A stretch of 64,000 nucleotides of DNA from Bernardetia sp. ABR2-2B (GTDB lineage: Bacteria; Bacteroidota; Bacteroidia; Cytophagales; Bernardetiaceae). This document shows positions 36,448 through 51,447 of this stretch, one piece after another (positions within the stretch are counted from its first letter, which is position 1; every line of letters starts with the position of its first letter). Both the position numbers and the translations under genes were made by a program. The stretch spans positions 1,015,001 to 1,079,000 of the forward strand of contig NZ_CP147020.1 in NCBI RefSeq assembly GCF_037126435.1, in the 5' to 3' direction. Under the pieces are notes generated by a model. It did not search any database. It had not been told where the DNA came from and saw only the letters and a list, made by a program, of their open reading frames with translations.

Positions 36448-36486
36448 AATTAGCTTCGCTGCTTTGGCAGGTCGTAATTCGTAATT
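36448..36486 (+). repeat. 39-bp dispersed repeat, copy B
   Basis: Same 39 bases as at 19609-19647, with GG for AA in the middle. It touches the stop codon of the triple-TIR gene on its right and has the 7-bp array on its left. Confidence 0.8.
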
Positions 36487-38993
36487 TATAAGGATTTGAG
36501 TAATACTTTTATGTCTTCTTCAATTTGCTTTTCTAAAGACTGTCTGACCGATGTACGAACAACTCCCAAACTCTCTAACTGCCGAGCATAATTGAGTAGT
36601 GATTTTTTAGTTTTCAAGATTTCATCACGCAACCTCATTCTATCTTCTACAAAGGTTCTTTCTTTTACAAAATCTTGTTTTTTGAATTTATTTTCTTTCA
36701 CAGCTAGTATTGATTCAGCTTTTATTCTTTGCTTAACAGCTACACTTTGCTTCTGTATAGCAGAATCTATTTGGGCTAGTGCATCTTCTAGTTGTCGGTT
36801 TTTGCTATTTAGGTTTTCAATAGCTTCTTGTGCTTCAATTTTACTTTTAATAGCTTCATCTTCGCTTTGTTTGGCTAACCGTTCATTTTCCATAGCTCTT
36901 TTTTCACTCTTCTCTGCACTTGTTTTTTCTATGAAGGCATACACACCAGCAACCATTGAGACAAGAAGCGCAAAGGAGGCTATAACAAGAAATAATTTTT
37001 GGCGTTCGATTCTTTTCTTTGCCTCTTCATTTCTAGCTTTCTCTAAATTAAGTAGTTGTTCTTCTACTTCTTTCTTTTCATTCTCTTTTGCTTCAATAGA
37101 TTGCTTACAGGCTTCCAAATATTCGGCTTGTAGGGCATTTGGCGATGGTTTTTTCTTTTTCAGAATTGCTTCTTCGTACCACGATTGTGCTAAAAAATAT
37201 TCTGTTCCAAAAAGCAAAAAGTCATCATTTTTTTCTTGTCTTTGCCATTGAAGTGCTTCTTGATACCAATGATTGTGTGCTTTTACATGCTCTCTGTCTG
37301 TATCTAATGTACGAATCATTTCAGCAAATGCATCGTGGAAAGTTGCTTGATTGGGAATAAAATTTATCCATTGTATATCTGATAATTCCATTGGAATATC
37401 AAATGTTTCGGTTGCTCTATACAGAATGGTAATAATTCTTTTTCCTAATTTAGCAGCAAATTTTACCTCTCCCTCACAATAAGGAGACTTAACAGAATCA
37501 GGAGAAATAATAAAGACAAAATTCTCACAAGCTTCAATTCCATTATAAATTTCTTGCTGAAAGTTTGCGCCAGAAGCTATACTTTCTTGGTCAAACCAAG
37601 TTGTTTTTCCATTTTCTTGTAGCTCGTCATTGAGCCTCCTTGCATAATCTCCATCAGCTCTTGAATAAGAAATAAATACTTCTGTACTTAGCTGACCACT
37701 TTTAGCTTCACTTTCTCTAACAAACTCTTCGTGAAGACGGGTAGGTAAATGTGTCTCTCTTTGAAGTCCTATTTTTAACCAAATTTTTGCCTCATCAAGA
37801 TTATGACCTCTAAGCAAAATACTGGCATTATGGTTTTGTTCCTTCCAACGAATTGCTTTATTAAGAATAATTTTATGTTTATGATAATAGTCTCTGTCTT
37901 TGTTTATCTCGTTTAGTAGTTCGTCTATATCTTTTTCATAATCTGTTTTTTCATTCTTTGAACGTGGAATAAAATCGTAATTATTATCTGTAAAATCAAT
38001 AAACTGTAAATTTCTAATCTCTACTGGAAAATCATGAACAGGAACACTATCCATTCGCAAAGGAATAATTCTTTTATTATATTTTACGGCGTGTGCAAGT
38101 TCTTTTTTACAATATTCAGATTTGATAGATTCGTGCGTAATGAAGAAAATAAAATTATCAGCCTGTTCTATTCCATTTTCTACTTCTTTATCAAAATCTC
38201 CTCCTGCCTGAATGTCTATTTGATGCGTCCAAGTAGTAATAAGGTACTGCGACAAAGAACGCAAAACTCTATTTCTAATCTCTTCGTCCTCTTCTGCATA
38301 AGAGATAAAAGCATCTGTCATTCTATTTTCAGAGTTTTTACGAGCTTCTGAAATAAATTCGCAATGAATAGAAGAAGGCAAACAAGGGGGTTGTCCATCA
38401 TTAAAAGCAGTAAGTAACCATTGTTCGGATTCTGTTTGTCTGTCTCCAAAGGGCAAATAACGAGTATTACGGTACTGTTTTTCCCATTCTAAAGCCGTAT
38501 GCAAAAGTTCTGTATGACGTCGTACATATTCTTTGTGGCTTTCCAAAATAGAAAGTAGCCCTTCTTCTCCTTGTTTTTTATCATCAATATCTAACCACTC
38601 GTGCTGTCCTTTTCCTTCTATCATATTTTCCCTCATATAAATCCAATTTCTTTTTTTTATGGCAGGATTCATAAATTCTTCTATCATATCTCCAGAAGGC
38701 TCAATATGAAGAATAGGAATAATTCGTTTGCTATACTTGACAGCTAATTCAATTTCCTTTTTACAATAAGGAGAGCGAATAGAATGAGGAGCAATCACAA
38801 AAATAAAATTATCAGATTTTTCTATTCCCTCATCTATTTGGTCTTGAAAATCGACAGCTAGAGGAATATCATTTTGGTCGAACCACACTTTATATCCTTT
38901 TTCAGTCAATAAATCGTATAATTGAGAAGCAAAATACTTGCTTTCAGCTCTTCCATAAGAAATAAAAATATCTTTATAATTAGGATTGGACAT
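36486..38993 (-). CDS. Triple-TIR membrane protein with coiled coil
   Basis: 835 residues with three TIR modules at about 6-140, 225-345 and 437-560, each starting DIFISYGR/DAFISYAE/EVFISYSR. The candidate catalytic Glu is kept in all three: YCKKEI (Glu80), YCKKEL (Glu298), YCEGEV (Glu509). Each TIR is followed by a helical linker with a conserved pattern (W..Q..N, L..G, WL or WY, then an EF or EY helix). Residues 668-687 form a membrane helix (LFLVIASFALLVSMVAGVY) within a long coiled coil (635-835). TIR domains of this kind act as NADases or as NAD-derived signal makers in defence; this role is inferred. No partner gene is adjacent. Confidence 0.82.
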   Translation of the reverse strand: MSNPNYKDIFISYGRAESKYFASQLYDLLTEKGYKVWFDQNDIPLAVDFQDQIDEGIEKSDNFIFVIAPHSIRSPYCKKEIELAVKYSKRIIPILHIEPSGDMIEEFMNPAIKKRNWIYMRENMIEGKGQHEWLDIDDKKQGEEGLLSILESHKEYVRRHTELLHTALEWEKQYRNTRYLPFGDRQTESEQWLLTAFNDGQPPCLPSSIHCEFISEARKNSENRMTDAFISYAEEDEEIRNRVLRSLSQYLITTWTHQIDIQAGGDFDKEVENGIEQADNFIFFITHESIKSEYCKKELAHAVKYNKRIIPLRMDSVPVHDFPVEIRNLQFIDFTDNNYDFIPRSKNEKTDYEKDIDELLNEINKDRDYYHKHKIILNKAIRWKEQNHNASILLRGHNLDEAKIWLKIGLQRETHLPTRLHEEFVRESEAKSGQLSTEVFISYSRADGDYARRLNDELQENGKTTWFDQESIASGANFQQEIYNGIEACENFVFIISPDSVKSPYCEGEVKFAAKLGKRIITILYRATETFDIPMELSDIQWINFIPNQATFHDAFAEMIRTLDTDREHVKAHNHWYQEALQWQRQEKNDDFLLFGTEYFLAQSWYEEAILKKKKPSPNALQAEYLEACKQSIEAKENEKKEVEEQLLNLEKARNEEAKKRIERQKLFLVIASFALLVSMVAGVYAFIEKTSAEKSEKRAMENERLAKQSEDEAIKSKIEAQEAIENLNSKNRQLEDALAQIDSAIQKQSVAVKQRIKAESILAVKENKFKKQDFVKERTFVEDRMRLRDEILKTKKSLLNYARQLESLGVVRTSVRQSLEKQIEEDIKVLLKSL

Positions 38994-39446: not shown

Positions 39447-39521
39447 GGCGATCATAGCTCAGTTGGTTAGAGTATCGGTTTGTGGTACCGAGGGTCGTGG
39501 GTTCGAACCCCACTGTTCGCC
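39447..39521 (+). tRNA. tRNA-His (GTG anticodon)
   Basis: Cloverleaf with acceptor GCGATCA/TGTTCGC (one T-T mismatch), D-stem GCTC, an anticodon stem around TTGTGGT with anticodon GTG, and T-arm GTGGGTTCGAACCCCAC. G39447 serves as the extra G at position -1 opposite C73, which is specific to tRNA-His. CCA is not encoded. The 3' end is part of the att core of an integrated element. Confidence 0.95.
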
Positions 39522-39523
39522 CA
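39508..39523 (+). repeat. Attachment site attL (tRNA-His 3' end)
   Basis: CCCCACTGTTCGCCCA, identical at 47903-47918; after one mismatch both continue with AGTTTC. The core is the 3' T-arm strand and acceptor end of tRNA-His. It marks the left end of the integrative element. Confidence 0.9.
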
Positions 39524-39563
39524 AAGTTTCTTTTTAGAATGAAATTTTTTAAAGGAAAAATAC

Positions 39564-39599
39564 AAAAGGCAATTTCTAAAATTTAGAAATTGCCTTTTT
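39564..39599. terminator. Hairpin terminator after tRNA-His
   Basis: AAAAGGCAATTTCTAAA pairs with TTTAGAAATTGCCTTTT. It lies just inside the element and ends the tRNA transcript now that the original one is at the far end. Confidence 0.85.
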
Positions 39600-39750
39600 T
39601 TATTTTATATATTTTTTATTGTTTTTTTTGTACAGATTCTAAACCTTTGAGGTTTTAAAATTTAGACACAAAAAAAAGCATAGAATAAAACTCTATACTT
39701 AATTTGTTTTTAGATTATGGCAAGTCTAAAAAAACCGTCTTACATATTTT

Positions 39751-40011
39751 CTAGTCCTCAAAAGAATCATCGGAGTAGGTTACCTCACGGAGTAGCTCCC
39801 ATTCGGTTTTTTCGCCTATTACTTTGATAGCTCCGTAAAGTTTCAAGCTGAAACCTTCCTCTTTTTTTATCAATGCTCTTTCACGTTTTTCGAACTCTTT
39901 TTGGGCATCTTCTAAATTCATATATTGCCCTCTTTTTCCTCCTCCTGTTACTCTGAAAAGGTTAAATACTCCATCTTCTGGGTTTACTGTTTGCGCTTTC
40001 TTTTTCGCCAT
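39751..40011 (-). CDS. Small element protein of unknown function
   Basis: 86 residues, mixed charged, with a Lys/Glu-rich helix (DAQKEFEKRERALIKKEEGF) and an acidic end (SYSDDSFED). No domain is recognised. It is the last minus-strand gene before attL, 12 bases after the zinc-finger gene, and probably in one transcript with it. Such small basic-helical proteins in integrative elements are often regulators or excision helpers, but nothing here shows that. Confidence 0.6.
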   Translation of the reverse strand: MAKKKAQTVNPEDGVFNLFRVTGGGKRGQYMNLEDAQKEFEKRERALIKKEEGFSLKLYGAIKVIGEKTEWELLREVTYSDDSFED

Positions 40012-40023
40012 TTTGTATTAAAA

Positions 40024-40470
40024 TTATTGGTTTTTGTTTGGATATAAATTATTGTCTCTGTCGTCTAAGTCGTCTAAAATATCGGTAAGTTGTGAAATAT
40101 TTATTGTTTTCAAAACCTCATTACTCAAACCTTTGAGGTTGTAGATTAGCCTTTCTATGGCATCAACTGTGTAGTTTTTGAATAATTCTTTATAGTTTTC
40201 TGATGTGGTGTTTTCTGTGGTATCTGTTACTAAAACTAACCATTGTATATGCCTTAATGATTCTATTTTATTTTCAATATCATTAAAAAGCTCCTTGGCT
40301 TCTTTTGACACTTCACTTTTGCGATAATCTGTATTACCTACCTTGGCAATTATACTAAGCTTTTTTCTACAATAAGCCGAACATGTTTTTTTATCTTTCC
40401 TTGATTTTCTTGGTAAAATCTCTCCACATGATAAACACTTTCTTTCCTTTACTACTTCCTTTTTTGACAT
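40024..40470 (-). CDS. Zinc-finger protein of the element
   Basis: 148 residues. The N-terminus has a C-x2-C then C-x3-C finger (KCLSCGEILPRK and KTCSAYCRKK), similar to the finger at the C-terminus of the element's membrane protein, including the YC and CR. The rest is helical with no match I know. The shared finger suggests a common partner or nucleic-acid target for the two proteins. Downstream is the 86-residue gene; upstream is the AAACCTT iteron array. Confidence 0.65.
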   Translation of the reverse strand: MSKKEVVKERKCLSCGEILPRKSRKDKKTCSAYCRKKLSIIAKVGNTDYRKSEVSKEAKELFNDIENKIESLRHIQWLVLVTDTTENTTSENYKELFKNYTVDAIERLIYNLKGLSNEVLKTINISQLTDILDDLDDRDNNLYPNKNQ

Positions 40471-41162
40471 ACCTTTTTAATTATTCTATACTACTAATTT
40501 ACGGATTATTTGACTTTAAGATACTGTTTTTCAATCCTTTGTTCACACTTACCAATTTTCAACACTTTCAACAATGCCCAAAAAATACGTTCCAATAGCC
40601 ATAAAAGGTATTTTATAGAGTTGCATATTTTCACACTTAGCACACTTATTAATTTTTTTGGGTGAGATGGTTTGCTTTTTTATCAAACCTTCAAAAAACC
40701 TTATTAAATCCTTATATACGGCTTGTATAAGGCGTTTTTCTATTATTTTTTAGTTTCATTTTGTCCGTTTTTATCAGAATGGCTCAAAAACCTTGTCAAA
40801 ACCTTCAAAAAACCTTCTAACAGTACCGTAAAGGCACTTTTTAAAAACAAATAGCCTTTTCTAGCTTGTGAGGAGCATTTTTGATTTTCAATTTTGCAAA
40901 AAAATACCAAAAACCTTAAAAAAACCTTGTTTTGATAAATTTTTAGGTTTTGGCTGTTTTTGTCCTGTTAGTCAGTTGTTTTATGGCTTAATAGACTGTA
41001 AACGCACTTTTTGAGCTAATTTTACAAAAAAACAAACCTTAGTGAAACCTTGAAAAAACCTTATTTAAACCTATACATATACCTTTAATGTAGTAGGTAT
41101 ATGTATAGGCTATTAGTAGGTTTTTATCTCAACATATCCTACAAAATTATTTTTCTAAGAAG
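40471..41162. repeat. AAACCTT iteron-like array, region with no gene
   Basis: A 692-base gap without a supported frame. It has ten direct AAACCTT repeats, all in one orientation, in four clusters starting at 40685, 40788, 40911 and 41034. The last three clusters are spaced 123 bases apart. The region ends in a 15-bp palindrome pair (41070-41109). This is the pattern of a replication origin or of a partition or control site. Confidence 0.65.
41070..41109. promoter_or_regulatory. 15-bp perfect inverted repeat
   Basis: CCTATACATATACCT at 41070-41084 and AGGTATATGTATAGG at 41095-41109, with a 10-base loop. It lies directly after the last AAACCTT cluster and downstream of the membrane protein gene. 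It may be a terminator-like hairpin or a binding site at the origin. Confidence 0.7.
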
Positions 41163-42416
41163 TTATTTTTTTGTCTTTCTGAATGTCTTACCTGTTTTTG
41201 CTTCCCAAGCTGTGATACGGCATTTTTCGGAGCAATAAGTATGATTCCACGTTTTATATATGAATGGTTCTTTACAGTTCAAACATTCTCTATTTCCTTC
41301 GTCTAACGGCTTGCGTTTAACGGCTTGCGTTGTGTCCTTTTTTCCAAATTGAAAACCGATACTTTTTTGAGGTTGTACCGTTGGTATTGTGTATGGCTGT
41401 ACGGCTTGCGTTACGTCTGTCGTTACGCTTTGCGTTTGTGATAGAAACGTTTTGAGTATTTCGGCTATTTCTGTCAATGGTTCGCTTTTCGGTTGGTCTG
41501 CTGTGGGATTTTCCTTTTTTGGCAGAATATCAAAATTTACTCCTTCACGTTCTGTATTTCTCAAATAGATAAATCTAAAACGATAACAGATAATACAAAT
41601 AATTTCTAAGCACAAAACAATAAAAGAAACTATGTAAGCCGTGTTAGCTCCTTCTTTGGCATTTTCTAAGGTGTTTTTTACGGCTTTATTGCTTTCTAAT
41701 GTTATTCTATTATCTAATTTGTCTAAAAGGTTGTTTTTGGCTTCTGTGGCTTCTTTCAAGTCTTTACGTGCATTGTTTGCCCTCCAACCTTTAGAGTATT
41801 TTTTTAGAGTTTCTTTTGAACTATTGATACTCATTTCATAGCCTTCTAATTGGGAGCTGTACATATTTTTCAAACTGTCGGTTTGTATGGCTAGTTCTGT
41901 TTGAATGATTGTACTTTTATCATTCATTTCTACGGTAAGGAATGCGCCCCCAATGGCAGAAAATAAAACAGATAATACAAAAGTAAATCCTAAGCCTAAT
42001 TTTGCGCCTGTTGGTGCGTTTTCTCCTTTTGAAGTGGCTATAAATAGGTTTATTGCTGACTGGCTTTTGAGCATTTCCAAACCTACCAATAAACCAATAA
42101 GTAAAAGTCCTATCAAACTAGAAATAATAACTTTTAGGGCTGTTAATTCTCCTGTATGAAAGGCTTTTGCTATCAAATAGACACTTGCAATACCTAACAG
42201 AAAGCTAACGATATGATAAACACTTGTAAATCCATTAGAAAATTGATACAAATTCCTGTTTTTTTGTGCGTATGGTTTGGGTGTGAGTTCTTTTTGTGCT
42301 TCCAAATAATATCCTTTTTTGGCTGTTTCCTGTAACGTATCTGTAAATACGTCGTTTTGGTGTGTTTCCTGTGGCGTTTTAGCCTGTGGAGTGGTGTTTT
42401 TGCTTAATTTTTGCAT
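41163..42416 (-). CDS. Four-helix membrane protein with coiled coil and C-terminal zinc finger
   Basis: 417 residues. After a polar head come helices VYHIVSFLLGIASVYLIA, VIISSLIGLLLIGLLVGLEM and FTFVLSVLFSAIGGAFL, a helical coiled region outside the membrane (about 190-260), a fourth helix (AYIVSFIVLCLEIICIICY), then a cytosolic tail rich in Gln, Thr and Pro that ends in a zinc finger (CLNCKEPF then YCSEKCR). I recognise no family. An AGTGGGAAAA box lies about 25 bases before the start. Its place in a small replicating element hints at a role in membrane anchoring, immunity or host takeover; none is proven. Confidence 0.65.
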   Translation of the reverse strand: MQKLSKNTTPQAKTPQETHQNDVFTDTLQETAKKGYYLEAQKELTPKPYAQKNRNLYQFSNGFTSVYHIVSFLLGIASVYLIAKAFHTGELTALKVIISSLIGLLLIGLLVGLEMLKSQSAINLFIATSKGENAPTGAKLGLGFTFVLSVLFSAIGGAFLTVEMNDKSTIIQTELAIQTDSLKNMYSSQLEGYEMSINSSKETLKKYSKGWRANNARKDLKEATEAKNNLLDKLDNRITLESNKAVKNTLENAKEGANTAYIVSFIVLCLEIICIICYRFRFIYLRNTEREGVNFDILPKKENPTADQPKSEPLTEIAEILKTFLSQTQSVTTDVTQAVQPYTIPTVQPQKSIGFQFGKKDTTQAVKRKPLDEGNRECLNCKEPFIYKTWNHTYCSEKCRITAWEAKTGKTFRKTKK

Positions 42417-42440
42417 AACTTTGTATATGGTTTTTTAAAA

Positions 42441-42460
42441 AGTGGGAAAACTTTGTTTTA
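42441..42460 (-). promoter_or_regulatory. AGTGGGAAAA box 1 (upstream of the membrane protein gene)
   Basis: AGTGGGAAAACTTTGTTTTA on the plus strand, about 25 bases before the ATG at 42416. The same box occurs at 45988, 46012 and 46977, three of the four just before start codons. Confidence 0.55.
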
Positions 42461-42481
42461 AGACCAAACTAACGCCTTTGC

Positions 42482-43390
42482 TTATGCTTGGGCGTTTTTT
42501 GTTTGGCTACTGGTTAGAAATTGATTAAAGTCGTTATAATCCTTGTATGTATCGGATTTGTCAAACAATGGAATAGCTAATTTTTTTAGTTCGTTTGTGG
42601 CTTCTTTTCCTGCTGTATCATTGTCTAGGAAAGTGAAAATTTTAGTAGCTGCTAATGATTTTAGTATCTGTTTTGCTTTTTCTGTGTGGCTAGTAGAATT
42701 CAGAATTAAAATATTTGCTTTAAAATTCTTTTTGTAGTAAGTGATTGCAGAAAGAAAGTCGATAAAACCTTCAAATATTATCCACGTTGTAGAATTTTTG
42801 TATAAAATGGTTCTTATATCAGCTTTTCCAAAATTGCCTTTAAAACTCTTATTTCTGACTGCATAACCTTCTGAATCATTTGAGAAAAACAAACCGTAAT
42901 ACCATTTATTTTTTAGTTCGTATTGTTGGTATTTTATGTATTCTTTGGCAAGTGATGGACTAATACCACGTTCTTTTTTTAGATAGTAGTTTAGATTGTT
43001 TTTTTGTTTGTCGGTTGCTTCTTTGTGGTTTGGTAATGGCTGATTGAAATGAGGTTTTGAAAGAAAAAAGTTATCATCTTTTGGTTGTTGTACAAACTCC
43101 TTATTGAATGCCAAAAGAAAATACATGGCTTCTACAAATGATTTTCTTTTGTATTCCATTGTGAGCGTCATGACGTTCCAAATTCTCCCACTACTCAAAT
43201 CTTTTGCAATCCAAATATTTTGAGTTTGATGTTTGAATACTGAAAAGCTGTTACTACTTTTTTCTGTTCGAAAAGGATTTTCAAAAAGTGAGTTTGAAAG
43301 TTTGACAAATCCAAATTCTACTAATAAAGCTCTCAAATCTGTTTTATTAGCTTTCTCTATTTGCTGGGGTGTAAATCTGTTATTTTGCAT
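42482..43390 (-). CDS. Toprim DNA primase-like protein
   Basis: 302 residues. An N-terminal part resembles the CHC2-type primase head without its cysteines (NPFRTEKSSNSFSVFKHQ, WNVMTLTMEYKRKSF), and the C-terminal half is a toprim domain: the Glu in IIFEGFIDFLSAI and the acidic pair in FLDNDTAGKEA. Such proteins make primers for plasmid or satellite replication. The gene faces the helicase gene across a 626-base spacer full of repeats, as expected for a replicon. ATG at 43390 is chosen over GTG at 43432. Confidence 0.8.
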   Translation of the reverse strand: MQNNRFTPQQIEKANKTDLRALLVEFGFVKLSNSLFENPFRTEKSSNSFSVFKHQTQNIWIAKDLSSGRIWNVMTLTMEYKRKSFVEAMYFLLAFNKEFVQQPKDDNFFLSKPHFNQPLPNHKEATDKQKNNLNYYLKKERGISPSLAKEYIKYQQYELKNKWYYGLFFSNDSEGYAVRNKSFKGNFGKADIRTILYKNSTTWIIFEGFIDFLSAITYYKKNFKANILILNSTSHTEKAKQILKSLAATKIFTFLDNDTAGKEATNELKKLAIPLFDKSDTYKDYNDFNQFLTSSQTKNAQA

Positions 43391-44016
43391 AATTATATAA
43401 AATTTGTGTTTTTTATTACTTCTGAAAAACACGTTTTTAAAAGTCTTGAAAAGTGCTGTAACACTGTAACACTGTAAACATTTACTAAAAAGTTGATTTT
43501 TGATAGTGTAAGAGTAGTTTTTGTGTTTACAGTATAATTTTAAGGTACTGTAAACTATCTTTTTGTAAAAACACTCTTTAACTATGTTTAAAAGCCTATT
43601 TAGTTGTAAAACGTTAATTTAATAGCCTAAATGTTAATATTTTGATGATTGATTTTAACTAAAAAAATTACATTGAAATTTTAGAGTTTTAAAATTGAAT
43701 GATTTTTTTGAGTAAGTTTTTATGCTTTTTTCTTTCAAAACCTTATTATTTAAAGATTATAGTTTTTGACGAATGAAGTATAATTTTAAACCACCTTTTC
43801 ACAAAAACACTCTCAAACTCTTTAAATAAACTTTGCTTTCTAAACTGTTTACAGTGTTTACAGTACACTAATTTTTCTACTGTAAACAAAAAACTATCTT
43901 TAAGCTATCAATAAGCCTTATTTTAGAGAATGTTTACAGTGTTACAGTGTTTACAGTAGTTTTTAAAACTTTATGTTTTTTTTACTTGTAAGGTTTTGGT
44001 ATTGAATAGTGCTTTT
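43391..44016. repeat. ACTGTAAAC iteron-like array, no gene
   Basis: Between primase and helicase genes, eight copies of ACTGTAAAC in either orientation lie at 43471, 43525, 43547, 43847, 43856, 43879, 43932 and 43949, with several shorter forms (GTAACACTGTAAC). A second smaller block repeats ACAAAAACACTCT-like DNA at 43566 and 43801. The tandem and inverted layout fits a Rep-type origin or an operator array. Confidence 0.7.
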
Positions 44017-45435
44017 TTAATCGCCTTTTTTCTTAATTACTGAATAAAAGCGTTTTGTAGTCCTTCCGATGCGTTCGTGTTTTTGACAAAAACCGAAATT
44101 TTGAAGGCGTTGCCCTAATTGAGTTGGATAAATTTTAGTAGGTGCGTAAAAGTCTAAAAACTTGGCTAGTTCTGTGGCTGTCATATCCACGATTTTATCT
44201 TTATTGTCTTCTGTTGGTAACTCCAAACATTCCTCGATAACTTCCATTATAGAATCCGTAATTTGAAATTTGTAGCTATAACGGTTTAGTAATTCTTTAT
44301 CTTCTGAGTTTAACTCGTGCGTTTCTCCATTCTTAAAACAGTGATAGGCTTCCATTAATAAATCCGTTTTGTCTATTGCGTTATATTCTTTGTGTTCAAT
44401 GCTACTCACTTCAATAGGCAATAAACGCCTATTTCCTGTTAAATCCCCTAACAATTCATAATCATTACTAGTACCTGCAAACGATGCAATTCGCTTGATA
44501 GATTGCATCAAACGACCATAAGGCAAACGAACTCTAAAAGTGTCTTTATCAGATAACGCCTTTAATAGCTTCCAATCACTTTTATTTTTACCTCCCATTT
44601 CATCATCTAAAATGATTAAAGCCGAACCCATTTTTTGAGCTAAATCACTTTCTTTTTCATTATCCAATTTAGTTTCAATCAAATAATTTTTCAATTCACT
44701 TGGGAGCATTCTCAAAAAGAACTGACTTTTTCCTGTTCCTTGCCCTCCTACTAAAATCAAAAATAAATTACTTTTACCTCCGTAAACACTGGCTATAAGA
44801 CCTATTAACCATTTTTTGATAAATCTATAATTATAGTCTTCATTGCTTAATCCGTTGCTACTCACTTCAATAGGACTAATAATAGAATCTGAAAAAGCCT
44901 TTATTACTCCTGTTGGTTTTCGCTTTTTATTCTTTTCGAAAAAGTCAATAAAAGGATTATATTTTGTAATGAAATTACTGTTTAGGATAGTAAAAAACGT
45001 ATTACTGGAACATTTTTTAATACCAAAATTTTGCGCTTCTATTAAAATAGTATTCAAGTCTGCATCATTCAAAATACGTCCTTTGTTATCAAATTCATTA
45101 GTTATTAAATTAAGCCTTAATCCTTTTTCATAGTGGCGTAAATAGGTCAAGATTTGGTCATTTTTGTTTAGAGAATAGAAATGAAAAAATACTTCATTCT
45201 CCTTATACATTCTTTCAATTATGTTTTTTGCTGTTGTCGGATTGATAGTAGAAAATTTGGGTATCAATTCAGCTTTTGACAATTCTATATCCTGTCCTTT
45301 TTTTATACACTCTAATATTTGAGCTTCAAAAATCTTTTTAAAATCATTACTAACTACTTCATTTTGAGGCTTTTGAGTAGTTATATTTGTTCCATTATTT
45401 GAAACAATATTTGTGTTTTCTGCGTTTAATTCCAT
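44017..45435 (-). CDS. VirE/VapE-family helicase-like ATPase
   Basis: 472 residues. An N-terminal region of about 200 residues is unassigned; then the P-loop VGGQGTGKS (230-237), Walker B ALIILDDEMGG and the block FAGTSNDYELLGDLTGNRRLLPIEV-type motif that marks the VirE family, followed by a C-terminal winged-helix-like end (TQLGQRLQNFGFCQKHERI). These act as superfamily 3-like helicases in phage satellites and plasmids. With the neighbouring primase it forms the replication core of the element. Confidence 0.85.
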   Translation of the reverse strand: MELNAENTNIVSNNGTNITTQKPQNEVVSNDFKKIFEAQILECIKKGQDIELSKAELIPKFSTINPTTAKNIIERMYKENEVFFHFYSLNKNDQILTYLRHYEKGLRLNLITNEFDNKGRILNDADLNTILIEAQNFGIKKCSSNTFFTILNSNFITKYNPFIDFFEKNKKRKPTGVIKAFSDSIISPIEVSSNGLSNEDYNYRFIKKWLIGLIASVYGGKSNLFLILVGGQGTGKSQFFLRMLPSELKNYLIETKLDNEKESDLAQKMGSALIILDDEMGGKNKSDWKLLKALSDKDTFRVRLPYGRLMQSIKRIASFAGTSNDYELLGDLTGNRRLLPIEVSSIEHKEYNAIDKTDLLMEAYHCFKNGETHELNSEDKELLNRYSYKFQITDSIMEVIEECLELPTEDNKDKIVDMTATELAKFLDFYAPTKIYPTQLGQRLQNFGFCQKHERIGRTTKRFYSVIKKKGD

Positions 45436-45516
45436 ATATTTACTGTTGTTTAGATTTAATTATTTATTTGCGTATAAGTCATTCTGAACAATCAAAAGAC
45501 AGTATAAAACCGTTTA

Positions 45517-45541
45517 GATTCGCTTCTAAACGGTTTTTTTG
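45517..45541. terminator. Hairpin terminator
   Basis: AAAACCGTTTAGA pairs with TCTAAACGGTTTT and is followed by T residues. It lies between the 137-residue gene and the helicase gene, so the transcript may be partly stopped there. Confidence 0.75.
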
Positions 45542-45555
45542 TGTTCTATTGGCTC

Positions 45556-45969
45556 TTATGCTACTGCCTTTCGTTTTTTATTTGTCTTTGCTTCTACTTC
45601 TGAAAGACAAACCAAAAAAGCGCACTTCTTTTGCAGAATGTTGTACCACACTAAAGAGTATTCAAAAGGCTTACAAGCTGTTTCTAAGGCATCACTACAC
45701 ACGAAATCAAAAAACATAGGCAAGTATATTTTTGCTTGTGTGGCTACTAACATTATATCTTGTCCTTGTTTTAGATGATAGATTGTACTAACACAATCGT
45801 AAAAATTAATAATTACTTCTTGCTCCTTTGGGCTGCCCTGTGTTTGGCTCTTAGTGCATAGCTCATAAACTTGGGCCACAAATCCATATAAATTTTTATC
45901 TGTCAATAGACTTACATAGACTGGAGCAGTAGCGTTTTTTTGTTCGGTTGTCAATTCTGAAAACGTCAT
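45556..45969 (-). CDS. Element protein of unknown function
   Basis: 137 residues, mostly helical, with several Cys and an acidic-to-basic gradient ending in KTNKKRKAVA. No family is recognised. An AGTGGGAAAA box lies 19 bases before the ATG and a second one 24 bases further on. It sits between the integrase and the helicase genes, in a place often taken by regulators or excisionases, but no HTH is visible. Confidence 0.55.
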   Translation of the reverse strand: MTFSELTTEQKNATAPVYVSLLTDKNLYGFVAQVYELCTKSQTQGSPKEQEVIINFYDCVSTIYHLKQGQDIMLVATQAKIYLPMFFDFVCSDALETACKPFEYSLVWYNILQKKCAFLVCLSEVEAKTNKKRKAVA

Positions 45970-45987
45970 GATAATTGGTTATTAAAA

Positions 45988-45997
45988 AGTGGGAAAA
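45988..45997 (-). promoter_or_regulatory. AGTGGGAAAA box 2
   Basis: AGTGGGAAAA followed by TTGATTTA, 19 bases before the ATG at 45969. Confidence 0.5.
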
Positions 45998-46011
45998 TTG
46001 ATTTACTGAAT

Positions 46012-46022
46012 AGTGGGAAAAC
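46012..46022 (-). promoter_or_regulatory. AGTGGGAAAA box 3
   Basis: AGTGGGAAAAC followed by TATTTTTTAAAA. It lies between box 2 and the integrase stop, so it may form a pair with box 2 for the same gene. Confidence 0.45.
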
Positions 46023-46028
46023 TATTTT

Positions 46029-46976
46029 TTAAAATCGTTTGAGAATAGGGAATACAAAATTTCTTTTTCTCAAAACTCGTGCATCTGGACGGCTCAAATA
46101 ATTATAAGTAGATTCTCCATTTGTGTGTCCTAAATAATCCTGTACGCATTGAGGATTATAATTATTCTCTTTATATACATCTAATGCTGTTGTAGCTCTG
46201 AAACTATATAGCGTTTGAAACTTATCAAGCTCTAGGGCATCTTTTACCTTTTTGAATGCATGACAAAAAGTGTTTTTACTGGCTATCTTTTTTCCTATGC
46301 CCTTTGACTGGTTAGAAAACAAATAATAAGAACTTGGAAACTTATCAATATTCCATTTTTTGAGTTCCTTAATAAATTCAATAGGAATTTCAATCGTTCT
46401 TTCTATGCGTGTCTTTATAGTTAGACTTTCGGGACGTATGAGCCAATTTTGAGTATCAATATTACCTACTCTTAGCTGTCTAATTTCATTCGGTCTTAAT
46501 CCTGTGTATCTGAAAAACTCAATAAAACGCAATAGAAAAACATTGTTTTCTCTTAGATAATCATATATTTTTTTGATTTCCTTGTCATTGTACGGCTTAT
46601 GATATTGCGTACTTTCTTTGCGTAACCTTGGGATTGATAAAGCATTGTTTCTGTTTATCCATTCCTTTTCATAGAAATAATGAAAGGCATTTTGTAAGAA
46701 GTTTCTATAGTCATTATAACGATTATTACTCACACCCCTATCCTTTTTCATAGCTGCCAAAAGTTCGTATAAAACGCCTGTGGTTGCGTTCTCTATTGGT
46801 AGAGTGTCAATACCTAATTTTTGCAAAGTAAGAAGCATAATATTAGAAATTGACTTAATACGCTCATCTGTTCGGTTGCCGTTTAGATTTGTTTTGTAAG
46901 CCAAATACACCTCAATACCTTCATATAAATTTGAAGGTTTATGAAATGCTACGACTGGTTTAATTGGTTTTAACAT
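46029..46976 (-). CDS. Tyrosine recombinase (element integrase)
   Basis: 315 residues with an N-terminal SAM-like core-binding part (MLTLQKLGIDTLPI) and a C-terminal catalytic domain. The conserved Arg is in YTGLRPNEIRQL, the second Arg in LYSFRATTALDVY (the usual His before it is changed), the Gly-His in QDYLGHTNGESTY and the nucleophile Tyr close to NYLSR. It should catalyse integration and excision at the tRNA-His att site. It lies about 0.9 kb from attR. AGTGGGAAAAC touches its ATG. Confidence 0.9.
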   Translation of the reverse strand: MLKPIKPVVAFHKPSNLYEGIEVYLAYKTNLNGNRTDERIKSISNIMLLTLQKLGIDTLPIENATTGVLYELLAAMKKDRGVSNNRYNDYRNFLQNAFHYFYEKEWINRNNALSIPRLRKESTQYHKPYNDKEIKKIYDYLRENNVFLLRFIEFFRYTGLRPNEIRQLRVGNIDTQNWLIRPESLTIKTRIERTIEIPIEFIKELKKWNIDKFPSSYYLFSNQSKGIGKKIASKNTFCHAFKKVKDALELDKFQTLYSFRATTALDVYKENNYNPQCVQDYLGHTNGESTYNYLSRPDARVLRKRNFVFPILKRF

Positions 46977-46995
46977 AGTGGGAAAACTTTGTTTA
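46977..46995 (-). promoter_or_regulatory. AGTGGGAAAA box 4 at the integrase start
   Basis: AGTGGGAAAACTTTGTTTA directly precedes the integrase ATG (46976). It has the longest match with box 1. Confidence 0.55.
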
Positions 46996-47247
46996 ATTGG
47001 TTACTGATTCCTTTGGTAAAAATTTAATGGTACTCTCGTGGAGCTCCAAAATGTGTACATCGAAATATTCTGAAAGCCTTTGCATTTCGTCGAACATTAA
47101 TGGTTTTTCATTTCGGATTAATTGATAAAAACGTCTTGAACCTATACCGATATGAGAAAAAAACGCCCTGTTAGGTTTAAAAGTCATTTTTCTATCATTC
47201 TCATAGGCTTTAAGTATCGTTTTTAGCCTGTTATTTGATTGTTTCAT
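46993..47247 (-). CDS. Small Cro-like DNA-binding protein
   Basis: 84 residues from the ATG at 47247 (the longer GTG version is open to 47286). It has a helix-turn-helix-like segment (NRAFFSHIGIGSRRFYQLIRNEKPLMFDEMQRLSEYFDV in outline). It overlaps box 4 by a few bases at its end and is divergent from the XRE gene, so the two regulators probably share the palindromic operators at 47376-47416. Element switches of this form usually control integrase and replication. Confidence 0.65.
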   Translation of the reverse strand: MKQSNNRLKTILKAYENDRKMTFKPNRAFFSHIGIGSRRFYQLIRNEKPLMFDEMQRLSEYFDVHILELHESTIKFLPKESVTN

Positions 47248-47375
47248 AGTCTTAAAAATTGTTTTTGAATACTCAAATATACGCACTCAAAAGAATAAAA
47301 TATAATTTAAAAGCCCAAAAGCTATATAAATTAACATTTATTATACTTTCAAAATCTAAATGGTTTAGGGTTATG

Positions 47376-47385
47376 AACTATAGTT
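47376..47385. promoter_or_regulatory. Palindromic operator O1
   Basis: AACTATAGTT, a perfect 10-bp palindrome, repeated at 47407-47416 at a centre distance of 31 bases. Confidence 0.7.
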
Positions 47386-47388
47386 ATA

Positions 47389-47396
47389 TATTTTTG
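47389..47396 (+). promoter_or_regulatory. Bacteroidota -7 promoter box
   Basis: TATTTTTG fits the consensus TAnnTTTG and lies between the two operators, 24 bases before the XRE start codon. The -33 box is not clear. Confidence 0.6.
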
Positions 47397-47406
47397 TATA
47401 AAAAAT

Positions 47407-47416
47407 AACTATAGTT
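47407..47416. promoter_or_regulatory. Palindromic operator O2
   Basis: AACTATAGTT, ending 3 bases before the XRE start codon. With O1 it flanks the promoter, so the XRE protein probably represses itself. Confidence 0.7.
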
Positions 47417-47419
47417 AAT

Positions 47420-47836
47420 ATGAAATTTACTACAGGAATAAAAATAAACGAGGCTATCAAGTCAGAAAGAATTTTAAGAGGTTTATCTCAGTCCGATATG
47501 TCTGAAAGTTTGGGGATTACACAAAACGCCTACAGTAAGATAGAGAGGGGAATTAGCTCAATTTCTTTAGAAAGATTTATTGAAATTTGTAAAATACTGG
47601 AGATACCTTCTTATGGATTTCTAGAGTATTGCAAATTTGCAATAAACAAAGAAAATTACAGTAAATTCGTTAAACGTATGACAATTACTCCTGAAGAGAT
47701 TGAAGAAGAAGCTATATATAAAAAAAAACTAGAAGACAAAGTAAAAACATTGAGTAGTACAATAGATGAAAAAGATAGGTTAATATCTATACTTGTGGAA
47801 AAAATAAAAGGTTTGGAACAAGAACTAGAAAAATAG
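47420..47836 (+). CDS. XRE-family transcriptional regulator
   Basis: 138 residues. The N-terminal HTH (LSQSDMSESLGITQNAYSKIERG) is a standard XRE domain; the C-terminal half is a coiled coil (residues about 95-138) likely for dimers. It is the only plus-strand gene of the element and starts right after the AACTATAGTT pair. Divergence from the Cro-like gene makes it a candidate master repressor of the element. Confidence 0.85.
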   Translation: MKFTTGIKINEAIKSERILRGLSQSDMSESLGITQNAYSKIERGISSISLERFIEICKILEIPSYGFLEYCKFAINKENYSKFVKRMTITPEEIEEEAIYKKKLEDKVKTLSSTIDEKDRLISILVEKIKGLEQELEK

Positions 47837-47902
47837 CATTTTTGAGCTACTTAGCAATAACAAAAGGCATTAAAAAAGAGCAAAAATTAGGGTTTAAAAA
47901 TC

Positions 47903-47918
47903 CCCCACTGTTCGCCCA
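47903..47918 (+). repeat. Attachment site attR
   Basis: CCCCACTGTTCGCCCA, identical to the tRNA-His 3' end at 39508-39523. The tRNA body is missing here. It is followed by the original terminator of the tRNA gene. Confidence 0.9.
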
Positions 47919-47925
47919 TAGTTTC

Positions 47926-47966
47926 AAAAGGCTTTTAAACTTACATAGTTTGAAAGCCTTTTTTTT
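47926..47966. terminator. Displaced tRNA-His terminator
   Basis: AAAAGGCTTTTAAAC pairs with GTTTGAAAGCCTTTT, followed by a T run. In the uninserted chromosome it would directly follow tRNA-His. Confidence 0.75.
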
Positions 47967-48102: not shown

Positions 48103-51100
48103 ATGATTTTAGAAGAATACATCAGCAAAATCAATCAGCGTTTTCAATTAGGAAACTCTACTGAGCATACATTTAGAGGAGATTTACAAACACTTTTAGA
48201 AAGTATTGTTCCTAAAGTATCAGCTACCAATGAGCCGAAACGTATTGCTTGTGGTGCGCCTGACTATGTTCTGACTAAAAAGGATATTCCTGTCGGATTT
48301 ATTGAAGCCAAAGATATTGGAGATAAAGACCTTGAAGGAAAAAAGAAAACTGGCAATAAATCCCAATTTGATAGATATAAAAACTCCCTTGATAATCTTG
48401 CTTTTACAGATTATTTGGATTTCCATTTTTATCAAGAAAAAAAGTTTGTCAAAAGCATTGCTATTGGTAAAATAGAAAATGGACAGATAGAACCCATTAG
48501 AGAGAATTTTGAGAGTTTCGAAAGGCATATCAACGATTTTTGTATCTATGAAGGACAAACTATAAAAAGTCCGAAAAAATTAGCCGAAATGATGGCTGCA
48601 AAGGCGCAACTATTAGCTGAAGTAATAGAAAGCTCACTCAATTCAGATGAAAAAGAACGTCAAAACTCTTCTTTAAACGAGCAATTTGAAGCCTTCAAAC
48701 AAATCTTGATAAAAGGTATCTCACACAAAGCCTTTGCTGATGTGTATGCTCAAACAATAGCCTACGGAATGTTTGCAGCACGACTGCACGATGATTCGCC
48801 TACTTCTTTTACTCGTCAGAGAGCTGCTGTACTGATTCCAAAATCAAATCCTTTTTTGCGTAAATTATTCCAGTACATAGCAGGGTATGATTTAGATGAA
48901 CGTTTGGTTTGGATTGTAGATAGTTTGGCAGATATTTTTTCACATGCAAATGTAGAAGCTGCATTGGAAGAGTACGGAAGAGAAACACAAACAGAAGATG
49001 CCCTCATTCACTTTTACGAAACTTTTTTGGCAGAATACGACCCAAAACTAAGAAAATCAAGAGGGGTTTGGTACACGCCGAAACCAGTAGTTAATTTTAT
49101 AGTTCGTGCCGTTGATGATATACTCAAAACTGAATTTAATCTATCTAAGGGACTAACAGACAGCAGTAAGACCAAAATTAAAGTAAGTGAAAAAGGCGAT
49201 TTAGTAGAAAAAGAAGTACATAAAGTACAGATTCTTGACCCAGCAACAGGAACAGGAACATTTTTAGCCGAAACAGTAGAACACATTTACAAACAATTCC
49301 AAAATCAAAAAGGAGTTTGGAATAGCTATGTAGAAAATGACCTTTTACCTCGTTTGAATGGTTTTGAGCTGCTGATGGCTTCGTATGCAATGGCTCATCT
49401 AAAACTAGATTTTCTACTCAAAGAAACAGGCTTTAAACCTACCTCAGAGTCAAACAAACAGGAGCGTTTTAGAATTTTTCTAACAAATTCATTAGAAGAA
49501 GGTAGTACAGAGCTAGAAAGCAGTTTTGCAAATTGGCTTAGTACAGAAGCAAATGAAGCCAATAAAATCAAAAAAGATACGCCTGTAATGGTTATTTTGG
49601 GTAATCCTCCGTATAGTGGCGAAAGTCAGAATAAAGGAAAATGGATTATGGAATTGATGGAAGATTATAAGAAAGAACCCGAAGGAAAAGTAAAATTAAA
49701 GGAAAGAAATCCAAAATGGATAAATGATGATTATGTCAAGTTTTTGCGTTATGGTCAGCACTTTATAGAAAAAAATGAAAGTGGTATCCTTGCTTTTATT
49801 AATCCACATGGCTTTTTAGATAATCCTACTTTTAGAGGAATGCGTTGGAATTTGCTTAAGACATACGATAAAATTTACACCATAGATTTACATGGTAATT
49901 CTAAGAAAAAAGAAGTTTCGCCTGATGGAAGCATAGACCAAAACGTCTTTGATATTCAGCAAGGTGTCAGTATCAATATTTTTGTCAAAACTGGAAAAAA
50001 GAAAAAAGACGAACTAGGACAAGTTTTTCACTATGATTTGTATGGAAGAAGGGAACATAAGTATGATTTTTTAGATAATCATTCTCTTAAAGATATATCT
50101 TTCACAAAACTTCCAAATGTTGCACCTAATTATTTTATGGTGCAAAAGGATTTTGAAGCACAAGCAGAATATGATAAAGGGTTTTCTGTCAATGAATTAT
50201 TTGTAATTAATTCAGTAGGAATTGTGAGTGGTAAAGACGCTGTTTTAATAAATTATAATCATAAAGATTTAACTACAAACATAGAATCAGTTTATCACTC
50301 TAGTCCAGAACATGAATTGATAAGAAACATTGATTATCGTCCCTTTGATACAAGAAGTATTTATTATGATACCGATTTGATAGAAAGGGCAAGAGAGAAA
50401 GTAATGCAACATTTTATCAATGATAAAAATATTGGATTAACATTACCTAAGATAAATAAGGAAAATGACGAGATTGGTTACACTAATTCATTTATTACCA
50501 AAAATATAATTGACGCAAGAATTTCCGATAGATTCATAACTTCAATATTCCCTCTTTACCTCTATCCAGAAAAAGAAAAACCAAAAAAACTATCAGAAGA
50601 AAGAAGAACTATTTTATATCTTCAATGGGAAGAAAAAAGAGCAAGTTTAGAAACTATGAAAAAGGCGTTTGCAGCCCTTACACAGATGTATGAAATCAAA
50701 AATGGAAATCATAAAGAAGCTCAAAAAATATATAAAAAACAGAAGAAGGAATATGACAAACTAAAAGAAGAGGTAGAAAAGCTAACAAATGCCTTAGAAA
50801 TGAAAGAAGCAACAAATGGAACACTCTATGAAGCACAAGAAGAACCAAGAAAGCCGAATCTAAAAAAAGAAATAGTAGCTCAAATCGCTCAAAAATTAGG
50901 TTTAGTTTTTACGGTGGAGAAAACAAAAAAGAAAGGAACGTTTGCGCCTATTGATATTTTGGATTATATCTATGCTGTTCTTCATTCACCAAAATATAGA
51001 GAAAAGTATAAGGAGTTTTTGAAGATAGATTTTCCTAGAGTTCCTTATCCTACTGATGCAAAAACGTTTTGGAAATTGGTTGATTTAGGAGGTCAGATAA

Positions 51101-51447
51101 GACAAATTCATTTATTGGAAAGTGATGTAGTAGATAATTTTATTACTTCTTATCCTATTAGCTCAAATGAGGGAGGCGAAAACGAAGTAGAACAACGTCC
51201 AAAATATGCTCTCAATAAAAAAACTGATTTAGGAAAAGTCTATATCAATGAAACTCAATATTTTGATAATGTACCAAAAATAGCTTGGGAGTTTTATATT
51301 GGAGGTTATCAACCTGCCCAAAAGTGGCTCAAAGATAGGAAAGGTAGAAAGCTCACTTTTGAGGACATCAATCACTATCAAAAAATCATCGTTGCTTTAT
51401 CTGAAACAGATAGATTGATGAAGGAAATTGATACTATTTTGTTTTAA
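48103..51447 (+). CDS. Single-polypeptide restriction-modification enzyme (type IIG/ISP-like)
   Basis: 1114 residues. The N-terminus has a PD-(D/E)xK-type nuclease pattern: Pro53-Asp54 in GAPDYV and Glu68-Ala-Lys70 in GFIEAKDI. The N6-adenine methylase motifs follow: motif I LDPATGTGTFLAE at 378-390 and the catalytic NPPY at 501-504. The C-terminal half should be the target recognition domain. A helicase, as in LlaGI-type ISP enzymes, is not seen and the size is about 450 residues smaller. Phage defence is the expected role. It stands alone just to the right of attR. Confidence 0.85.
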   Translation: MILEEYISKINQRFQLGNSTEHTFRGDLQTLLESIVPKVSATNEPKRIACGAPDYVLTKKDIPVGFIEAKDIGDKDLEGKKKTGNKSQFDRYKNSLDNLAFTDYLDFHFYQEKKFVKSIAIGKIENGQIEPIRENFESFERHINDFCIYEGQTIKSPKKLAEMMAAKAQLLAEVIESSLNSDEKERQNSSLNEQFEAFKQILIKGISHKAFADVYAQTIAYGMFAARLHDDSPTSFTRQRAAVLIPKSNPFLRKLFQYIAGYDLDERLVWIVDSLADIFSHANVEAALEEYGRETQTEDALIHFYETFLAEYDPKLRKSRGVWYTPKPVVNFIVRAVDDILKTEFNLSKGLTDSSKTKIKVSEKGDLVEKEVHKVQILDPATGTGTFLAETVEHIYKQFQNQKGVWNSYVENDLLPRLNGFELLMASYAMAHLKLDFLLKETGFKPTSESNKQERFRIFLTNSLEEGSTELESSFANWLSTEANEANKIKKDTPVMVILGNPPYSGESQNKGKWIMELMEDYKKEPEGKVKLKERNPKWINDDYVKFLRYGQHFIEKNESGILAFINPHGFLDNPTFRGMRWNLLKTYDKIYTIDLHGNSKKKEVSPDGSIDQNVFDIQQGVSINIFVKTGKKKKDELGQVFHYDLYGRREHKYDFLDNHSLKDISFTKLPNVAPNYFMVQKDFEAQAEYDKGFSVNELFVINSVGIVSGKDAVLINYNHKDLTTNIESVYHSSPEHELIRNIDYRPFDTRSIYYDTDLIERAREKVMQHFINDKNIGLTLPKINKENDEIGYTNSFITKNIIDARISDRFITSIFPLYLYPEKEKPKKLSEERRTILYLQWEEKRASLETMKKAFAALTQMYEIKNGNHKEAQKIYKKQKKEYDKLKEEVEKLTNALEMKEATNGTLYEAQEEPRKPNLKKEIVAQIAQKLGLVFTVEKTKKKGTFAPIDILDYIYAVLHSPKYREKYKEFLKIDFPRVPYPTDAKTFWKLVDLGGQIRQIHLLESDVVDNFITSYPISSNEGGENEVEQRPKYALNKKTDLGKVYINETQYFDNVPKIAWEFYIGGYQPAQKWLKDRKGRKLTFEDINHYQKIIVALSETDRLMKEIDTILF

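Follow-up and report, generated by a model that had tools for sequence, protein, structure and literature searches.

Satellites such as the Staphylococcus aureus pathogenicity islands (SaPI) and the phage-inducible chromosomal islands (PICI) have a typical layout: an integrase, divergent regulators, their own primase-helicase, a repeat-bearing origin, cargo genes and direct repeats. Among Bacteroidota, NBU elements and other integrative mobilizable elements (IME) combine an integrase and a primase. The replication proteins of P4 and SaPI have primase and helicase activity (PMC7145576), a 'hitcher' class of islands has been reviewed (PMC11389934), and some satellites seemingly depend on a DNA motif alone (PMC11389934). 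We analysed a stretch of 64,000 bp from Bernardetia sp. ABR2-2B (NZ_CP147020.1, positions 1,015,001 to 1,079,000, forward strand; hereafter the window), in which a mobile element of 8,395 bp lies at a tRNA-His gene. The element is likely a small island that integrates and replicates by itself and does not transfer itself.

All parts of the SaPI/PICI layout are present in the Bernardetia elements, but packaging or interference genes were not recognised here and no helper is known. With NBU and IME the element shares its small size, its integrated state and the combination of integrase and primase; unlike them, it has no mob/relaxase gene. PLE satellites are likewise integrated elements with their own initiator and an iteron origin, but their initiator is of the RepA_N family and their recombinase a large serine enzyme (PMC7145576); neither family was found in the Pfam scan here. 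The I55 class of defence islands, which occupy tmRNA/tRNA sites and are moved by a jumbo phage (PMC12595487), has in common with our elements a tyrosine integrase, short direct repeats, a site at the 3' end of a tRNA or tmRNA gene, defence cargo (here in most relatives) and the lack of recognised autonomous-transfer genes. The I55 islands differ in their host (Pseudomonas) and in an AlpA regulator, and the word 'primase' is absent from the main text of that paper; the elements here are set apart by swappable initiator/origin cassettes and a predicted membrane protein shared with plasmids. Among the literature matches listed, judged by title and start of the abstract, none dealt with mobile elements of Bernardetia, and none in this weak search described a satellite family in this bacterial group.

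The limits of the element are marked by the following features (G001 to G003 are other genomes of the genus):

39448 to 39522, plus strand: intact tRNA-His (GTG) gene, the integration target (ARAGORN)
39508 to 39523, plus strand: left 16-bp core repeat (attL), tRNA-His 3' end
39564 to 39598, plus strand: terminator-like hairpin just inside the left end; tRNA-His in G002 and G003 is trailed by similar sequence
47903 to 47918, plus strand: right 16-bp core repeat (attR)
47926 to 47962, plus strand: terminator-like hairpin right of attR, placed as the tRNA-His terminator is in G001

The length given is the start-to-start distance of the two exact copies of the 16-mer CCCCACTGTTCGCCCA, which is the sequence of the tRNA-His 3' end. 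With up to two mismatches allowed, no copies beyond these two were found in the window (0.00 expected from 100 shuffles), and the 5.38-Mb genome contained two forward and no reverse copies (both controls: 0). The repeat can be extended to 22/23 bases. The initial annotation, made from the letters alone, had set the ends by this repeat and had placed a displaced terminator at the right end. Both proposals agree with our results: the pair is exact and its copies are the only ones in the genome, and the hairpin beyond attR matches the position of the tRNA-His terminator in G001. The number of terminator-like sites in the stretch was 6, with a mean of 3.0 in shuffles. The G+C content inside the element was in line with that of the flanks (29–32% in 2-kb steps).

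The tRNA-His gene was found in all seven genus genomes examined, with 99–100% identity. A comparison with related genomes had been proposed, and G001 has a locus that resembles an empty site. There the tRNA-His and the flanking genes keep the window order, with the element absent (left gene at 35388-36248, 88% identity; the ISP restriction-modification gene of the right flank, 71%; five more right-flank genes, 86–97%), and Int, VapE helicase and C, three proteins of the element, had no match in this genome. Occupied sites were found in G006, a metagenome-assembled genome in which mixed strains are possible. On its contig C15, a related 13.6-kb element with this 16-mer at both limits lies behind the same tRNA gene. 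The 16-mer is also present at the corresponding element end of G006C67, and contig G006C50 ends inside it (15/16 letters). This suggests that several elements stack or alternate at one tRNA in G006. Matches to the integrase Int315 with E < 1e-80 numbered four in 11 genomes, itself included, and all four lie beside the tRNA-His 16-mer (for G006C50, the truncated 15-letter copy). Weaker relatives occur in further elements. Taken together, the att repeats, the empty-site-like locus and the relative at the same 16-mer make the reading as an integrated mobile element in tRNA-His well supported.

Three observations weigh against this reading. The similarity of G001 to the right flank resumes at 47960, ~40 bp past the 16-mer and not at the 16-mer itself; the point of resumption is the terminator that matches the position of the displaced terminator in the window. 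G001 is also without the TIR gene left of the tRNA. Finally, G002 retains ~225 bp resembling the left end of the element and then continues with other DNA, with no integrase or helicase. This end remnant is a scar or a shared end and reflects past loss or exchange.

Between the repeats, nine proteins and a probable origin were found. Proteins are referred to by their first letter where this is sufficient:

39751 to 40011, minus strand: A86, cargo position, in this genome only among the seven of the genus
40024 to 40470, minus strand: B148, N-terminal CxxC...CxxxC motif, cargo position, in this genome only among the seven
41163 to 42416, minus strand: C417, predicted membrane protein with a long helical hairpin and a C-terminal four-cysteine motif
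42482 to 43393, minus strand: D303, Toprim primase-like (PF13155, Toprim_2, 1.4e-15; motifs)
43397 to 44016: probable replication origin, two iteron groups around AT-rich DNA, with TGTAAAC eight times
44017 to 45435, minus strand: E472, VapE-like helicase, probable initiator (PF05272, 2.3e-32; Walker A/B)
45556 to 45969, minus strand: F137, unassigned, in the slot of a family of 128–140 aa in relatives
46029 to 46976, minus strand: Int315, tyrosine recombinase (PF00589, 2.3e-20)
46993 to 47286, minus strand: H97, small conserved regulator, weak helix-turn-helix (HTH), Cro/Xis-like by position
47420 to 47836, plus strand: I138, XRE-type HTH repressor-like, divergent (PF01381, HTH_3, 3.4e-14; phrog_3, 1.3e-11)

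The reading frames of the element are open, and its three enzymes retain their motifs (Walker A GGQGTGKS, Walker B ILDDE, toprim EG..D and DxD, and R/R/H/Y of the integrase). The integrase, toprim primase and VirE-type helicase named from the letters alone were all recovered, the last as a VapE-like protein. The divergent repressor pair was recovered in part: I138 has a clear HTH match, while the HTH match of H97 was sub-threshold (0.044), with relatives of H97 in eight other elements. As F137 had no blastp match to the F140 family, only positional equivalence is claimed for it.

Replication by the element is strongly supported by inference from the intact motifs of primase and helicase and from repeats that change with the helicase. 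Between the primase and helicase genes, TGTAAAC occurs eight times (0.42 expected), a count reached in 0 of 500 exact shuffles. Two inverted arms of 63 nt (43460-43522 and 43889-43951) are 79% complementary, with 366 bp between them. In relatives, the same slot holds one of three helicase kinds: VapE (window, G006C50 and G006C90), DUF5906 (a second element at 3.05 Mb of the same genome, G006C8 and G003C94) or a 541-aa kind with a Walker A motif (G006C15, C17 and C67), for which the C15 member had no Pfam match. Because the VapE protein of the window also passes the cut-off of the DUF5906 profile (2.5e-7, Pfam), these two kinds are distant kin. In a profile comparison of the three helicase alignments (three rows each), just the first residues could be aligned.

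The repeat words change with the helicase. The three VapE elements have 8, 8 and 4 copies of TGTAAAC, and the three DUF5906 elements have 9, 7 and 6 copies of GAACAAA. Of the 541-aa kind, C15 has 12 copies of GTGCATA and C17 has seven of ACAACAT. Each count was reached in 0 of 500 exact dinucleotide shuffles per element. G006C67 was left out, as its helicase is cut by the contig end. The words were chosen from one member per type, so that only the remaining members are independent tests. Across types the four words were missing except for one GAACAAA each in C90 and C17, and a more distant VapE element, G006C88, contained none of them. Overall, an enriched array was found in eight of nine elements. 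In six elements, a motif-free control, the commonest 7-mer, was matched by 0–1 of 500 shuffles. GAACAAA occurs in elements with a Toprim primase (C8) as well as in those with a RepB primase (the 3.05-Mb element and G003C94), so the repeat type does not depend on the primase. The intergenic repeats follow the helicase, not the primase, across the relatives.

Other results weigh against a strict pairing of helicase and repeat. The two 541-aa helicases of C15 and C17 are 52% identical and yet have different repeat words. The commonest-7-mer control was weak in G006C90 (116/500), G006C88 (35/500) and G003C94 (11/500), and a cruder score over all repeated 7-mers, with Markov shuffles, was not significant for the window (z 1.8) and low for C50 (z 0.9) and C90 (z 0.3).

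The borders of the exchange are visible when the window element is aligned to the 3.05-Mb element. DNA identity is 87% over 40798-42527 (gene C with an adjacent repeat array) and 94% over 45351-45446 (start of the helicase gene). Between these borders, the primase, the origin and most of the helicase show no detectable similarity. This looks like an exchangeable initiator/origin cassette that would work in the manner of SaPI satellites, and the element itself belongs to a modular family that appears to exchange the initiator together with matching origin repeats.

The helicase also bears on the possibility of a genuine phage satellite, in which a helper phage would lift repression and the island would be excised, replicated and packaged via a cos/pac-like site alone. 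Among the matches listed, the best identities of the VapE protein were to phage helicases (35–37%, versus ≤30% in plasmids), and relatives in IMG/VR had 29–36%; a search of GTDB genome contigs returned 170 stretches, none of which was confirmed. The layout of integrase, divergent regulators and primase-helicase-origin module, the defence cargo of relatives and the precedent of motif-only satellites (PMC11389934) are also in line with a satellite. Against this, no packaging or capsid-interference family was above the cut-off in the element, the only terminase family tried (PF04466) gave one sub-cut-off match in the genome, and the kinship of C417 points to plasmids. We rate a phage satellite as possible but unlikely.

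The C417 kinship was found as follows. Among 72,556 plasmid records there was one match, NZ_CP147016.1 of Bernardetia sp. MNP-M8 (plasm4), which is circular according to its record and has 20,323 bp. Two further C417-bearing contigs, G006C69 and G006C72, have terminal overlaps of 34 and 46 bp and would close into circles of 7,893 and 7,481 bp. The circularity test (first and last 30 bases) was applied to 11 contigs and was positive only for these two; for G002C5 (20,323 bp) and G006C30 (20,388 bp) it used 20,000 bases. The small Bernardetia plasmids thus share the C417 family with the island. The small plasmid-like contigs C69, C72, G000:C4 and G004:C21 (of these four, circularity was seen for C69 and C72 and not for the other two) differ in their replication proteins of ~1,100 aa with helicase and/or Toprim domains. 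A relative of Int315 was found neither in the stretches of these four nor in G002C5. In 50,697 phage records C417 had no match at E ≤ 0.01, and none was found in IMG/VR with a single-protein scan, which reaches close relatives only.

Matches to the C417 family were present in five of the seven genus genomes. Among 395 genomes of the phylum, a full-length match was found in this genome only, and three more genomes matched the C-terminal part only. Of the loci confirmed in GTDB genome contigs, nine belong to Bernardetia sp. MAG-102; the only other one, with 28% identity, is assigned to an 'uncultured Bacteroidetes bacterium'. Judging from these searches, C417 is nearly confined to Bernardetia; we go no further than 'nearly' because the uncultured source of the 28% relative has no known genus. 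Six aligned members have invariant C378, C381, C395, C399 and W404, among others. In the structural model of C417, which is of low confidence overall (pLDDT 67, pTM 0.45), the membrane-like stretch forms long helices, and a long hairpin is seen. A PDB search with this model had no match at E ≤ 0.001; as the query TM-scores of the 50 matches listed were also ≤0.21, no fold is claimed.

The ratio of non-synonymous to synonymous substitution rates (dN/dS) indicated purifying selection on C417 (0.18–0.19) and was 0.14 for helicase E, for which dS was near-saturated (2.13) and a second pair was not computable. These values, the open genes, the motifs of the three enzymes and the perfect att pair argue against the view that the element is an integrated small plasmid, an immobile relic in slow decay. 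The plasmid-borne C417 relatives, the end-only scar in G002 and a split primase gene in G006C90 speak for such a relic; we consider this account improbable.

Beside the 3' end of gene C lies the second repeat array of the element:

40685 to 41073, plus strand: array of 11 AAACCT(T/A) units in four clusters, centromere-like in form

The spacing is 11 bp within clusters, and the clusters are ~100 bp apart. AAACCTT occurs ten times (starts 40685-41056), with 0.6 expected and a maximum of 4 in 500 shuffles. Two iteron-like arrays had been proposed for the element, and both this one and TGTAAAC were far above the shuffle expectation. In the 3.05-Mb element, twelve AAACCT(T/A) units in five groups lie beside C. 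At four more distant C genes, AACGGNTA units were found instead, five to eight per gene and mostly no further than ~110 bp from the stop codon.

Arrays phased at 11 bp are reminiscent of plasmid centromeres, for example parC of R1, and this likeness is the reason for considering a role of C417 in tethering or segregation. C417 and the array could form an undescribed single-gene maintenance system, in which a membrane-embedded zinc-finger protein tethers or segregates the DNA of plasmids and tRNA islands of the genus that have little else in common; we regard this as speculative and rather improbable. No ParM-like ATPase or ParR adaptor was found in the element with Pfam, and only the geometry of the array is parC-like. 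A significant 3' array was present at only 6 of the 24 C loci with enough 3' DNA, which also counts against such a system; on the 5' side, for comparison, the count was 1 of 23. Some of these loci are near-copies, and G003C145 (3') and G003C126 and G003C143 (5') were left out because they had too little DNA. An array at every C gene was therefore rejected, and as too few C loci have one, no general role is asserted. If the idea were true, the islands would be integrating plasmids that keep the C417 anchor and exchange initiator/origin cassettes, integrases and defence cargo.

Several other C417-bearing loci were seen. A second group of islands (L111:8000-9300, L071:9900-11200, L112:8500-9800 and L113:11100-12400) has many small genes, with type I restriction genes in L111 and L113. 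The C genes of this group are followed by AACGGNTA repeats and then an inverted CCGTT copy. Contig G004:C21 (L101, 15.4 kb) contains two tandem copies of 5.3 kb with one C417 relative each; as the copies are 94% identical, a simple dimer was rejected. On G000:C4, a 12,893-bp contig of the same genome as the window, a C417 relative occurs together with a Toprim protein of 1,131 aa and a phage tape-measure protein of 827 aa (L070:4861-7344; PF10145, 2.7e-37; phrog_1533, 8.8e-68), an unusual combination for a plasmid. This contig had no megablast match among plasmid records.

We checked the element for genes of transfer and packaging. No structural, packaging or relaxase family was above the cut-off in its proteins (Pfam, PHROG), in agreement with the earlier statement that structural, packaging and mating genes are missing. 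Packaging and capsid-hijack genes (terS, ppi, cpm) gave no Pfam or PHROG match in the nine proteins. A capsid gene, as expected for P4 or capsid-forming PICI, was not found in the PHROGs scan; the P4 core profiles themselves were not run. The coiled end of I138 had a sub-threshold match to a 'virion structural' PHROG (0.061), which is at chance level. The alignment of Int315 to IMG/VR gave one relative only (25%).

The same searches bear on a mobilizable element of the NBU/IME type, which would be transferred by conjugation via an oriT recognised by a helper relaxase. Relatives of the Toprim primase were found in 30 plasmid records of Bacteroidota, Int315 had a sub-threshold match to the mobilization domain BfmA (0.0078; 16.4 bits, cut-off 24), and the NBU elements also combine integrase and primase. 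However, 28 of the 30 plasmid records are typed as non-mobilizable and 2 as mobilizable, and the element has no relaxase. Relaxase PF03432 was not found in this genome and was found in one of the seven genus genomes, with a profile of limited sensitivity (1 of 14 controls found). This alternative is quite unlikely.

With an integrase beside divergent regulators and a primase/helicase-origin module, the element has the layout of PICI/SaPI. The direct-repeat insertion and the empty-site-like locus in G001 place it among tRNA-site islands of the hitcher class, and an array that is tied to the initiator type, and which the initiator would bind, is that of an iteron-type replicon. With packaging genes tested for and not matched, it is not classed as a PICI, and with no relaxase recognised it is not classed as an IME. 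The lack of structural and packaging matches also sets it apart from a prophage. The best label from these sequence features appears to be a non-autonomous, self-replicating 'hitcher' island. Kinship to plasmids fits equally well as a satellite. Of the 'replicating satellite-like element in tRNA-His' of the initial annotation, the integrated mobile element and, by the argument above, its replication are well supported. Similar support is missing for the satellite part: neither a packaging gene nor a helper was found, and C417 is seen on circular plasmids but had no match among the phage records searched.

A candidate operator was found in the motif GTTTTCCCACT:

42428 to 42461, minus strand: operator-like motif copy upstream of C
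45972 to 46032, minus strand: two operator-like motif copies, 24 bp apart, upstream of F
46964 to 46997, minus strand: operator-like motif copy upstream of int

The genome contains eight copies (reversed word: 0), six of which lie in the window element and the 3.05-Mb element. Three of them belong to the window element, ahead of int, F and C, and three to the 3.05-Mb element, with two ahead of F and one ahead of C; the remaining two genome copies are elsewhere. The pair before F has a 24-bp spacing in both elements, where one window copy is off by one letter. The motif is a good candidate for an operator that I138 or H97 would bind.

From these parts, a working cycle can be proposed for the self-replicating island. 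Int315 would recombine the 16-bp core with the tRNA-His 3' end and leave the tRNA intact. I138 would silence the divergent H-int-F-E-D-C block, probably via the GTTTTCCCACT sites before int, F and C. Once repression is lifted, H and Int may excise the circle. The helicase E would bind the TGTAAAC repeats between D and E and open the AT-rich origin, and the Toprim protein D would prime replication. As a predicted zinc-finger protein of the membrane, C417 would probably tether or segregate the circle, perhaps via the 11-bp-phased array, though this step is speculative. Because no transfer genes were recognised, we infer that the element relies on a helper or on DNA uptake to pass from cell to cell.

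The gene order [cargo] – (HTH271 – second recombinase) – C – primase – helicase – (F) – (Int) – H | I is common to the window element, the 3.05-Mb element, G006 C15, C50, C8 and C17 and G003C94. G006C90 is a variant and the eighth element of the shared order, with a second-recombinase relative between the helicase and H. Two elements with no close Int315 relative use other sites: the 3.05-Mb element has a 17-bp repeat of a tRNA-Met 3' end on either side, and the C90 element adjoins a tRNA-Arg gene. At the right end of the latter, two tandem tRNA-Arg (ACG) genes were seen (L024:12788-13093), and an open reading frame near its left end resembles the first of them, a possible att duplication.

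Cargo ends could be seen in seven relatives:

G006C15: ISP (by similarity)
G006C50: ISP
G006C17: ISP and AAA ATPase
G006C90: NACHT-like (1.6e-5, just under the cut-off) and PPR
G003C94: Mrr-NACHT
3.05-Mb element: type I restriction-modification methylase and HsdR; the middle gene has no Pfam match
G006C8: one unassigned 421-aa protein

By domain, six of the seven are of defence type. In the window, two small unassigned genes, A86 and B148, take this position, and neither had a PADLOC match.

Two neighbouring genes flank the element. Directly upstream of the tRNA-His, an 835-aa protein (36486-38993) has TIR matches in three stretches; a TIR-match gene adjoins tRNA-His in six of the seven genus genomes and is absent from the G001 stretch examined. 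The other gene lies on the right:

48103 to 51447, plus strand: type IIG/ISP restriction-modification protein, beyond attR here but part of the element in G006C15

This gene, which is missing from the initial annotation, begins 185 bp past the right repeat. Its place beyond the repeats and its presence in G001, where the element is lacking, speak against its being part of the window element. In G006C67 (stretches L053 and L059 compared) only its two ends are left, beside DNA common to G002. The gene may be former cargo that stayed behind, or else a gene of the chromosome acquired by the elements.

The mode of life and movement of most genomic islands without transfer genes is unknown. Because most relatives with a visible cargo end carry anti-phage-type genes, such cargo is probably the reason why hosts keep these elements. 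The compact family in one genus appears to show natural replacement of initiator and origin, with borders and repeats legible in the sequence; initiator specificity and compatibility are therefore directly testable. The shared C417 offers a handle on the maintenance of plasmids and islands in the genus. Should phages turn out to carry the elements, these would form a satellite family in a bacterial group with none described according to our weak literature search.

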